Source: Candidatus Poribacteria bacterium | Lineage (GTDB): Bacteria; Poribacteria; WGA-4E; UBA9662 | Assembly: GCA_002709695.1 (NCBI GenBank) | Contig: PAQF01000034.1 | Location: forward strand, 1 to 64,000 | Direction: 5' to 3' | DNA length: 64,000 nt | Shown: in pieces, positions 36,969-42,832 of the stretch | Numbering within the stretch: position 1 is the first letter of the stretch | Layout of the letters: the number at the start of each line of letters is the position of its first letter | Notes under the pieces: model-generated | Database searches by the model: none | The model's input: only the letters and a program-made list of their open reading frames with translations | What the model was told of the DNA's origin: nothing | Translations under genes and position numbers: made by a program

Positions 36969-37733
36969 GTGTTTGTTGTGATACTTGCTGTCTCAGTGGT
37001 CCTGTCAATACTACTTCCGATCCCAGCAGTTGTTGTCGATTTTCTGATTATCTTCAATTTTGCATTCTCGATTCTGATCCTGATGTTAACAATTCTGATT
37101 TCGAAACCAACTGATTTCTACGTTTTCCCGCCGCTCTTACTGCTAGCAACAATTTATCGATTGTCGTTAAATATAGCATCTACACGTCTGATTTTGACCA
37201 GTGCTTCACAGGCATTTGGGGCAGGACTGGTAATTTTCACTTTTGGTACCATGTTGACTAACCAAAATTTAATTGTTGGATCCATTCTTTTTTTGATCCT
37301 GATTACAGTTCAGCATCTAGTTGTGACTAGTGGTGCTGAACGGATAGCCGAAGTTCGCGCGCGATTCGCGCTAGACGCGATCCCTGGCAGGCAATTGTCC
37401 ATCGATGCGGACCTGAGTTCTGGGCTTATTACTATCAACGAAGCTTACGAAAAACGAAAAGCTGCGGCAGTCGAACAAGAATTTTATGGAACTATGGACG
37501 GTGCCACCAAGTTTATTAGAGGCGATGCGACTGTGGCTGTTATCAGCGTGATCGTCAATAGCCTTGTAGGTTTGCTAATTGGAATTGGCCAAGATAAACT
37601 TCCAATTGGTCAAGCACTGGAAACCTACACAATTCTGACCATCGGCGACGGACTAGCTTCGCGAACCCCTGCACTTTTACTCTCTGTGGCTACTGGGTTC
37701 CTTATCACCCGAAGCCGAGTGAAAACAAGATGA
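36969..37733 (+). pseudogene. flhA: truncated FlhA/FHIPEP-family flagellar export protein
   Basis: The 254-codon frame matches the N-terminal membrane part of FlhA, which normally has about 690 residues. Conserved text is FPPLLLLATIYRLSLNIAST, GAERIAEVRARFALDAIPG, DADLSSGLITINEA, and GTMDGATKFIRGD. The frame stops (TGA) after LITRSRVKTR, within the membrane domain, and the convergent DUF3500 gene ends only 12 bases beyond. The cytoplasmic two thirds are absent. Start is a GTG without a clear ribosome binding site. No other flagellar or type III secretion gene lies in the window. It is most likely a relic left by a deletion, although the retained part shows no internal stop. Confidence 0.85.
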
Positions 37734-40059: not shown

Positions 40060-41223
40060 TTATGAGACAATTTCGATCACGATACCCATACCAATCAACT
40101 GCTTCGTTTTTTTTATTTCGAATTTTGTACCAACCTGCATTGCCATTGGAATTTCTAATTCGACCAAAACTATGGCATGTTCACCAGGGTTAACAATGGC
40201 AGTACTTGAAGGAAGTGTGATGTGTCCATTAACATCGGTTGTCCATAGATAAATCTCAGGTTTATCGTTTCCAACAATTGGAATGTGAATTCCCGATTCC
40301 TCGACTGGCGTTAGATAAATAGCTGCTCTGAACTGATGGTAAGACCTAATTTGCTTGGGAGACGAAACAATTTGTCCAACTGTAATCCAGCCTGGTTCTG
40401 CATCAATCTGGATTCTGGTTTGATCATATCCAACACACCGTGTTCGTATTCTATCTCCTTTTCCAACAATATCAACATTTTGTCCAATTGCTAGTTGTCC
40501 TTGCAATTTTTTACCTTGGATTGTCGTTACACCTTTTTCTTCTTCTAAGACCCTAGAAATTGGTGCTATTAGTGGCAATTTACTGGAGAGAATCGGGATT
40601 GGTGTGTGCTGAGCAAGGGAAAAGATAAGATCAACAATTGGCTGCCAATCTGTTGCACCAAGGTCCTTCCCTTTGTATTTTAAGGCACTAGCAATATTTC
40701 CAATGATCGTTAATGGTTTTTTTTCGCCAGTATACCCGTATTTTGTAAGGAGTTCCTCTGTTTCATCTTGACACATCCCAATAAGTTCCGGATCTGCTAT
40801 ATCAACTTCATTCAGGAAGGGGAAAATCGTTCGAATTCCGATTTTATTGGCCAATTGAATCTGCTCGGTAATTTCCTTTGTGATTCCTTCGTTTATACTG
40901 ACAACTAGAATGGCTGCTTGGATTTCTGGCAAACCGCCAATAATAGCCTTAATTAAATCGACATGGGATTCTCCATCGATCAATTTATAGTGTTTTCCGC
41001 TGGTTTCAAACTTCGCAACTCGAAAAAAGGTTGAAAGTTGTTCCGTTATTCGAAAATTAACTGGATCCATTTGCTGAAATTGGGTGTGTGTGATCTCAGT
41101 AGCACCTATATATTGGACCACTTCCAATATTACGGTAGCTAGGGCTGTTTTGCCGTGTTTGACACCCCCGAATATACAAATTGTAGGATAAGGTTGATGT
41201 TTACCTTGCATTGGATTATCCAC
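40060..41223 (-). CDS. divergent EF-Tu paralogue with eroded GTPase motifs
   Basis: A 387-residue protein collinear with all three domains of EF-Tu. The GTG start has AAGGAG 4 bases upstream. G1 is kept: GGVKHGKT (19-26). The switch I 'RGITI' is absent. The DCPGH motif is DGESH (83-87): the glycine is lost, the histidine kept. NKxD is NEVD (138-141), losing the base-binding lysine. SALK (179-182) is kept. Domain 2 retains DIVGKGDRIR-like strands, and domain 3 retains TTDVNGHITLP, NPGEHAIVLVELEIPMAM and KQLIGMGIV. The frame is complete with no stops, so it looks selected for. GTP hydrolysis and aminoacyl-tRNA binding appear doubtful; the role is unknown. Confidence 0.88.
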   Translation of the reverse strand: MDNPMQGKHQPYPTICIFGGVKHGKTALATVILEVVQYIGATEITHTQFQQMDPVNFRITEQLSTFFRVAKFETSGKHYKLIDGESHVDLIKAIIGGLPEIQAAILVVSINEGITKEITEQIQLANKIGIRTIFPFLNEVDIADPELIGMCQDETEELLTKYGYTGEKKPLTIIGNIASALKYKGKDLGATDWQPIVDLIFSLAQHTPIPILSSKLPLIAPISRVLEEEKGVTTIQGKKLQGQLAIGQNVDIVGKGDRIRTRCVGYDQTRIQIDAEPGWITVGQIVSSPKQIRSYHQFRAAIYLTPVEESGIHIPIVGNDKPEIYLWTTDVNGHITLPSSTAIVNPGEHAIVLVELEIPMAMQVGTKFEIKKTKQLIGMGIVIEIVS

Positions 41224-41823
41224 TAATCTCCTTAACTAGTTTAGCAAATATGCTTGGCTTAATCAATTCGAAAAAGGTAAGTTTATATCTCAAAAATTGA
41301 GACCTAACGCCAAAGAATTTTACTGAGTTTGTCCATCATAATTGGAGATCCCCATAGTACAACAATGAAAAAATCATCCAATAACCTGTAGCTCATCAAA
41401 TAGAGTATTCCCTTTCCAAAACCAAAGGTTAGGCATTCGAATTTTCATAGTTACATTCTAATTATTATCCTTTGTACCCAGAACACATCAAAATCCACTG
41501 GATTTTTTCTTCTTGCAAAATAGACAATTAGTTTAATAAGAAAATAACCGTTAAAATAGTCAGTCTGTCTAGATTAGAAAAAGACAAGGTTTTTGACTGT
41601 TTTGTTAGTGTGTTGAAGGGGTTAGTTTTCCAAACTTGAGCTTGAAGGGTTACTAAATTGCAATTAGGAGGGTCATAACATCGAAATAGATACTTGAGGA
41701 TTGTACAGGAATGTAACTTCCCAGTTTTACAATCGTGTTTTAGTCTTTGTTCTGTTAGATGATAATACCACATAATCCAGCTAGATACATAATTTCCCAA
41801 TGTCAAACTAATTTAAAGATCGT
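41224..41823. other. intergenic, 600 bases, no supported gene
   Basis: AT-rich, between the EF-Tu paralogue and the broken epimerase. A minus-strand frame at 41528-41806 has no ribosome binding site or family pattern and I do not call it. No RNA gene or terminator is clear. Confidence 0.4.
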
Positions 41824-42832
41824 TTAGTGGAATTCTTTCTTACCATTTTTAGTTATCATAGGTACTTTCCTCATCCATAACGATTTTCTCCACCATTTTG
41901 GATTGTGCCTATACCATTCTATTGTTTTGTCTCTTCTATCTGTGAAGTTCGTTTTAGCTGCCCATCCCAAGATGCTTTTTGCCTTATCAGTGGAGGATGT
42001 ATGCCTAAAAACTTGACCAGGCCTATCACCAATGTATGTAATGAGCGAGCGTGGCTGGCTCATCTTATCCACGATAATTTTAGCTATTGTTTTATATCAA
42101 TGTCACATCCAGTTCCAATATTTATCACTTGGCCGTTTACTTCGCTTCCTGCGTGTACAGTAGCGTCCAATGCTCGACAGAGATCTTCTACAAATAACCA
42201 ATCTCGACGTGCTAATCCGTCTCCATGAACAGTAAGTGGTTCCATCTAGAAGACAGGAAGTAAAATCTCGGGACAACCTTTTCAAGGTGTTGTCGTGGTC
42301 CATAGTTATTAAAGGGACAAGTAATAACAGCCGGAATATCATAGGTAATCCCATAAGAATAAATTAACCTGTCTGCACCAACTTTAGCACTCGCATATGG
42401 ACTCATTGGCATCAACGGATGTTCTTCATCCATAACGTCTTTTGTTGCTGTGCCATAAACTTCTGAAGTAGATATATGGATTAACCGTTCAACCGAACCG
42501 CTTTTTAAAACAGCATTAGCAATGCTGTGGGTTCCTAGCACATCTGTTTCAAAAAAGATAAGATTATCAAAATAGAGCGAATAACATGAGTTTCTGCTGC
42601 AAAGTGGATAACTACATCAGATTGGTCAATTAGCGTGCCAAACTAATTCAGCATTTCGAACGTTACCATACCAAAACTCGAGGCGAGTTTCATCAGGAAT
42701 ATTATCCATGTTTGCAGCATAAGTCAAAACATCCAGGACTAATACATGATAATCTTGATATTTGTTTAAAATATACCGCACAAAATTGCTGGCCATAAAA
42801 CCATCTCCACCTGTTACAAGTATTGTCTTCAT
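41824..42832 (-). pseudogene. dTDP-glucose 4,6-dehydratase-like (RmlB) gene, multiply frameshifted
   Basis: Reading left from 42832 the fragments assemble into one extended-SDR sugar dehydratase of standard size (about 336 codons). Pieces: LVTGGDGFMASNFVRYILNK (N-terminus), VVIHFAAETH, LIHISTSEVYGTA, MSPYASAKVGADRLIYSYG, FNNYGPRQHLEKVVPRF, PLTVHGDGLARRDWLFVEDL, VINIGTGCDIDI and YIGDRPGQVFRHTSS up to LWMRKVP. Frame breaks fall near 42640 (extra base), 42570 (missing T), 42250 and 42092 (missing A). Each is a single small indel, mostly in homopolymers, and repairing them restores the protein. It was part of a surface-polysaccharide locus and is now inactive unless these are sequence errors. Confidence 0.88.

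Follow-up and report, generated by a model that had tools for sequence, protein, structure and literature searches.

An EF-Tu paralog subfamily spanning an order of Poribacteria, with altered G motifs and few remaining tRNA contacts

The window analyzed here, a stretch of 64,000 nucleotides from Candidatus Poribacteria bacterium (GCA_002709695.1, contig PAQF01000034.1), encodes a paralog of the elongation factor EF-Tu in an unbroken frame that is preceded by a Shine-Dalgarno sequence and a tentative promoter (Table 1). This promoter would leave a leader of only ~8–12 nt; across the family, 63% of the orthologs have an upstream promoter of the sigma-70 type, in most cases with an extended −10 element, at a score that 1.4% of shuffled sequences reach, and the extended −10 form is present in most members of the f4 family. 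The neighboring genes vary across the four families compared (f1 to f4), so that the paralog stands alone, without a conserved operon, and this comparison linked no operon partner to it; in f4, the gene is mostly oriented opposite to both neighbors. Directly upstream of the paralog in the window lie the remains of a nucleotide-sugar dehydratase-like gene (~41840–42800, minus strand), broken into several frames. Elsewhere in the window, a fragment of a FHIPEP (FlhA-type export) gene (36969–37733, plus strand) matches the first 239 of the 657 profile positions; a similar short frame of 232 aa occupies the same place in the sister genome G002 (L038), and the fragment is either what a truncation left behind or a protein of reduced size.

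Table 1. Features of the EF-Tu paralog gene and its upstream region (coordinates of the window)
Feature	Position	Strand	Basis or occurrence
EF-Tu paralog, 387 aa, GTG start	40060..41223	−	Orthologs in 71/73 genomes of the order
Domain 3, Pfam GTP_EFTU_D3	40069..40350	−	Pfam match
Site of 14-residue deletion in domain 2 (E. coli 268–281, including N273 of the amino-acid pocket)	40398..40399	−	Gap in 69/69
True G5, GNIA (EF-Tu GSAL; GDA in most orthologs)	40690..40701	−	Alignment
G4, NEVD (EF-Tu NKCD): Lys replaced by Glu, N and D retained in the window species	40801..40812	−	Alignment
G3, DGESH (EF-Tu DCPGH): without Pro-Gly but with the Mg2+ Asp and the His	40963..40977	−	Alignment
Divergent switch I, residues 41–66; RGITI absent, LSTF present	41026..41103	−	pLDDT <50, disordered in model
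G1/P-loop, GGVKHGKT, intact; K in place of EF-Tu D21 (in most orthologs, G)	41146..41169	−	Alignment
Shine-Dalgarno AAGGAG, 4 nt before the GTG start	41228..41233	−	Sequence read directly
Promoter-like site TTGATT-17-TAAACT, extended −10 TGC, tentative	41238..41266	−	Identical in sister genome G002

The NCBIfam EF-Tu model TIGR00485 spans residues 10–386 of the paralog (E = 1e-53), scoring 182 bits against a cut-off of 522, and the SelB model reaches 41.6 bits against 242. Pfam recognizes GTP_EFTU and GTP_EFTU_D3 in the window protein, and its domain 2 model, which missed this protein, was undetected in all 22 family members scanned. The structure prediction that an earlier note on this DNA had proposed yielded an EF-Tu fold with a disordered switch I (AlphaFold, pLDDT 82.5, pTM 0.72), the best Foldseek matches of which are all EF-Tu, with TM-scores up to 0.87; the best sequence matches in the PDB are also all EF-Tu. 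The alignment behind this model included 38 EF-Tu sequences from viral contigs (a two-sequence alignment gave a pLDDT of 31), and because these favor an EF-Tu-like model, the predicted fold is to be taken as support rather than as independent proof. The profile models, AlphaFold, and Foldseek agree on three EF-Tu domains at full length, in line with the original description of the gene as a full-length EF-Tu relative in an intact frame.

The search set consisted of 85 genomes of the phylum Poribacteria and 109 genomes from other phyla. Among the 71 orthologs found in the window's order, 70 are full length and one is split across two contig ends (G019), and the frames are intact in all; the two genomes of the order without the paralog are 86% complete in 590 contigs (G050) and 78% complete in 880 contigs (G051). 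Outside this order, both within the class and in the remaining Poribacteria, as well as in the 109 genomes from other phyla, the scores were those of ordinary EF-Tu or lower, with the single exception of G007, a genome from another family of the same class (334 bits, compared to at most 286 for the next best). Other phyla were sampled thinly, so restriction of the paralog to this lineage is likely rather than proven. The nearest named relative, Candidatus Poribacteria UWMA-0119, encodes an ortholog at 74% identity; a scan of genome contigs that was queried with the species' own peptides recovered only the sister genome. A profile search detected no viral copies of the paralog, and, among plasmids, no match exceeded 60% identity, the annotated rows among the matches listed being tuf. 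Large viral contigs in IMG/VR (L157–L198, many of 80–620 kb) encode full-length EF-Tu with ~52–63% identity to poribacterial EF-Tu, and those checked all keep DCPGH, unlike the paralog.

A canonical tuf gene, the search for which had been suggested along with an EF-Tu tree and an estimate of dN/dS, is located elsewhere in the genome, within the str operon, next to fusA and genes for ribosomal proteins, and its product is 30% identical to the paralog. Normal tuf is absent from the G007 assembly and from that of another genome, G001; each is ~80% complete, so that the missing gene is probably a gap. In G006 and G010, normal tuf appears only as short contig-end fragments, with two places per fragment, as expected if tuf is duplicated and breaks the assembly. 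True SelB is encoded separately in the genome; a link of the paralog to SelB and selenocysteine was rejected because SelB is phylum-wide and does not track the paralog. A missing EF-Ts as the driver was rejected as well, given that EF-Ts is present in 72 of the 73 genomes of the order. The EF-Ts of the order is short (~200 aa; G000, contig C13, 73582–74181, and its orthologs) and matches the two ends of the model, with the middle stretch missing.

Comparison of the orthologs gave dN/dS of 0.056–0.233, with a median of 0.097 (576 pairs, which are not independent), indicative of purifying selection; between the window and G002, the values are 0.13–0.18 for the paralog versus 0.03 for tuf. The window lineage carries 30 unique changes compared to 18 in G002 and, with p = 0.11, its faster evolution is only a hint. 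In the EF-Tu tree, the paralogs and the G007 protein form one clade (100/100), with G007 outermost. The grouping of this clade with poribacterial tuf (p-AU 0.446) is subject to the risk of long-branch attraction, and such an origin is neither shown nor rejected. The presence of a normal tuf, the near-complete coverage of the order, the low dN/dS, and the fully supported clade support the proposal that the paralog is kept for a non-canonical role; of the two outcomes that had been set against that proposal, random decay and a normal tuf copy with sequence errors, neither was found. The ribosome-binding competitor and the regulator suggested earlier are inferred roles. We conclude that this is a real subfamily of EF-Tu paralogs, order-wide in Poribacteria and, as far as the literature consulted shows, previously unnamed.

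The G motifs were compared in an alignment of 69 of the 70 full-length orthologs, E. coli EF-Tu, and ten poribacterial EF-Tu. The P-loop, reported earlier to remain, is intact in the window protein, which matches GxxxxGK[ST], and GKT is kept in 68 of the 69 orthologs. More generally, G18, G23, K24, T25, D80, and N135 are kept in 67–69 of the 69, among them the Mg2+ aspartate D80 in all and N135 in 68. The nucleotide-site set, consisting of these six positions and of 173 and 174, varies less than the remainder of domain 1 (median entropy 0.08 versus 1.27, p = 3e-4, a value that is indicative given that the set was picked after the alignment was seen). The early suggestion of a nucleotide-dead protein is thus unsupported for the family, in which the residues for phosphate and Mg2+ binding hardly vary and G001 alone lacks the P-loop. 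This ortholog, from the window's family (L098, 6862–8022), combines a very long branch with an intact frame, and its existence implies that nucleotide binding is not needed everywhere.

The paralog family has neither the G2 motif RGITI nor the G3 motif DCPGH. The switch I threonine, T61, is lost in all 69 orthologs (0% retention). Switch I had been described as gone; RGITI is indeed absent, but the region is divergent rather than deleted, and in most orthologs a G-[I/F]-[T/S]-[Y/F] motif occurs, shifted by two residues toward the next strand relative to the RGIT of EF-Tu. The variants include GITY in most f4 members, YVSY in f3, and STFF or STLF in f1, and the T/S of this motif is possibly a re-registered sensor threonine. 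In G3, the previously reported DGESH with its histidine is confirmed in the window protein; across the family, P82 is lost in 69 of 69 (0% retention) and G83 in 68 (7% retention), with H84 kept in 49 (68% retention).

NKxD is likewise not a feature of the family: the weighted retention is 93% for N, 20% for K, and 26% for D, with K136 lost in 60 of the 69 orthologs, mostly to T, and the guanine-specifying D138 lost in 54, this position varying widely (G, D, N, E, K). In the window species itself, the loss of NKxD claimed before is partial: the motif does read NEVD, but only the lysine is lost, N135 and D138 being kept, and G002 still has NKAD. The statement that SALK remains resulted from a misregistered reading; with the register set against E. 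coli EF-Tu and the 69 orthologs, the true G5 (G172-S173-A174) is GNIA, and SALK lies three residues on, over K176–E179. An acidic residue was gained in G5 (S173 to D) in 67 of the 69 orthologs; G000 and G001 have N173 and keep D138. With NEVD/GNIA, the window species is atypical; the G4/G5 pairs are NKAD/GDVA in G002, NQTD/GDA in f2, NKAE/GDA in f3, and mostly NTxx/GDA in f4. Non-conservative G-motif changes in a retained, constrained protein make the paralog a candidate pseudoGTPase, a class in which GTP is not hydrolyzed.

A larger change, unmentioned in the earlier note, is the deletion in domain 2 along with the loss of nearly all aminoacyl-tRNA contacts. Among the contacts listed after PMC4329189 and general knowledge of EF-Tu, H66, E215, D216, F218, E259, N273, R288, and N90 show 0% retention across the family, and K89 is the sole one kept; the family thus has neither the aminoacyl-tRNA pocket nor the 5′-end contacts of EF-Tu. 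The E. coli 268–281 segment is still present in G007, which also keeps NKID and GSA but carries P in place of T61 and DCVDH in place of DCPGH. Provided that the branching is right, loss of the switch motifs preceded both the G5 change and the deletion in domain 2, which date to the base of the order; D138 disappeared later, on more than one occasion. Domains 2 and 3 have acquired new invariants: KGDRIKTR (247–254), W285, K296, D326, W333, and KKM (377–379). In helix D, E144 and E152 are invariant, and L145 is kept as well.

According to these alignments, purifying selection has maintained the EF-Tu fold together with its hydrophobic cores and the phosphate/Mg2+ site. The losses comprise, in the order judged from G007, the sensors of the gamma-phosphate, then the sites that bind tRNA, and then, in most members, guanine recognition. 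We lean, with moderate confidence, toward an order-wide EF-Tu-derived factor that does not switch, is statically bound to a nucleotide, and acts via the surfaces of domains 2 and 3 rather than as an elongation factor. The nucleotide would be a structural ligand, with a relaxed or changed base preference, perhaps no longer for guanine; the protein would not cycle between open and closed forms and would offer a protein partner the surfaces newly conserved in domains 2 and 3, serving as a standing regulator or adaptor made from its own housekeeping-type promoter. Slow hydrolysis would be possible given the frequent retention of H84 and the possible re-registered T/S. In EF-Tu, the helix D region contacts bL12 and EF-Ts, and because E144, L145, and E152 are kept, the partner most plausibly belongs to the translation apparatus; this link is weak, given that conservation of the helix D stretch overall does not exceed that of the remaining domain 1 positions (p = 0.15). 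We are doubtful of the bolder proposition that this is the first EF-Tu-derived protein to have changed its nucleotide, from guanine to adenine or another base, and to carry no tRNA, that is, an order-specific non-GTP regulator.

Several other explanations have to be weighed. The broken motifs, the divergence of G001, and the perhaps somewhat faster window lineage might be taken for a decaying tuf duplicate or for sequencing or assembly error, but this is highly improbable and, for the family, is ruled out by the intact frames, the dN/dS of ~0.1, the conserved promoter, and the deep clade with a common deletion. Another option is a switch of specificity, whereby EF-Tu became an enzyme that binds and hydrolyzes ATP or another non-guanine nucleotide, similarly to the route of SpoIVA from an Era-like GTPase. 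The retention of N135 along with the loss of D138, the mostly threonine residues at position 136, the nearly universal S173D, and the frequent H84 are compatible with this scenario; a preference for ATP is seen in SpoIVA (NSxR with SxE) and in engineered Era (PMC7952092), and YchF/Ola1, with NxxE, is an ATPase (PMC8779481), the f3 members reading NKAE. Such an enzyme nevertheless appears unlikely: the sensor threonine and the G3 glycine are lost or displaced, the acidic G5 residue is at a different position from that of SpoIVA, G000 and G001 have N173 and keep D138, and the variety at position 138 looks relaxed more than re-specified.

The paralog could also be a specialized ribosomal carrier of a tRNA mimic or of one special tRNA, comparable to Hbs1/eRF3 with Dom34/eRF1, to aSelBL (archaeal SelB-like, "EF-Pyl"), or to EF-Tu-GDP with Balon. 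The Methanosarcina aSelBL, with an altered P-loop and histidine and no detected GTPase activity, binds Cys-tRNA (PMC4329189), and EF-Tu-GDP occurs with Balon on ribosomes, where GTP hydrolysis is not needed (PMC10901736); in the paralog, K89, H22, and helix D E144/E152 are kept. We give this scenario little credence because neither the amino-acid pocket nor most of the contacts to the acceptor stem survive, whereas aSelBL conserves its tRNA contacts; moreover, the phylum-wide SelB does not track the paralog, and a screen of the 85 Poribacteria genomes for one Balon-like family, baeRF_family2, found none, with a model that also misses the B. subtilis control.

The preferred reading, a non-switching factor, is best placed against the known relatives. 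EF-Tu ranks among the best-conserved proteins of bacteria; a clade-wide paralog with an extant intermediate documents, step by step, the redeployment of a translation GTPase and allows one to test whether the EF-Tu fold can serve without GTP cycling. The paralog shares with EF-Tu the three-domain fold, the length, the P-loop, the Mg2+ aspartate, N135, and many core residues, but lacks switch I, the glycine of DxPGH, the tRNA pocket, and the domain 2 segment, and is encoded outside the str operon. Another clade-specific, separate subfamily of bacterial EF-Tu is the actinobacterial stress EF-Tu (actEF-Tu), the sole clearly distinct bacterial EF-Tu-like subfamily named in a 2015 survey (PMC4342817); these proteins are apparent condition-specific translation factors, resistant to EF-Tu antibiotics (PMC4342817), whereas the poribacterial paralog is devoid of aminoacyl-tRNA contacts. 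SpoIVA and YchF/Ola1 are P-loop proteins of the GTPase superclass that bind ATP and have an altered G4 (in SpoIVA, also G5), but belong to other families with other domains and are comparable to the paralog by the G4/G5 pattern alone; in SpoIVA, the NKxD change and the acidic G5 residue go with ATP preference, and matching changes turned Era to ATP (PMC7952092). The nearest precedent is aSelBL, a clade-wide paralog of the EF1 family with disrupted G motifs (PMC3037878, PMC4329189), so that the claim of a combination known from no characterized EF-Tu relative was too strong. MM1309, the aSelBL of Methanosarcina mazei, binds GTP, with no detected hydrolysis and no switching (PMC3037878, PMC4329189). 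However, aSelBL derives from archaeal SelB, and many of its members have a damaged P-loop and keep the tRNA contacts, the reverse of the poribacterial paralog.
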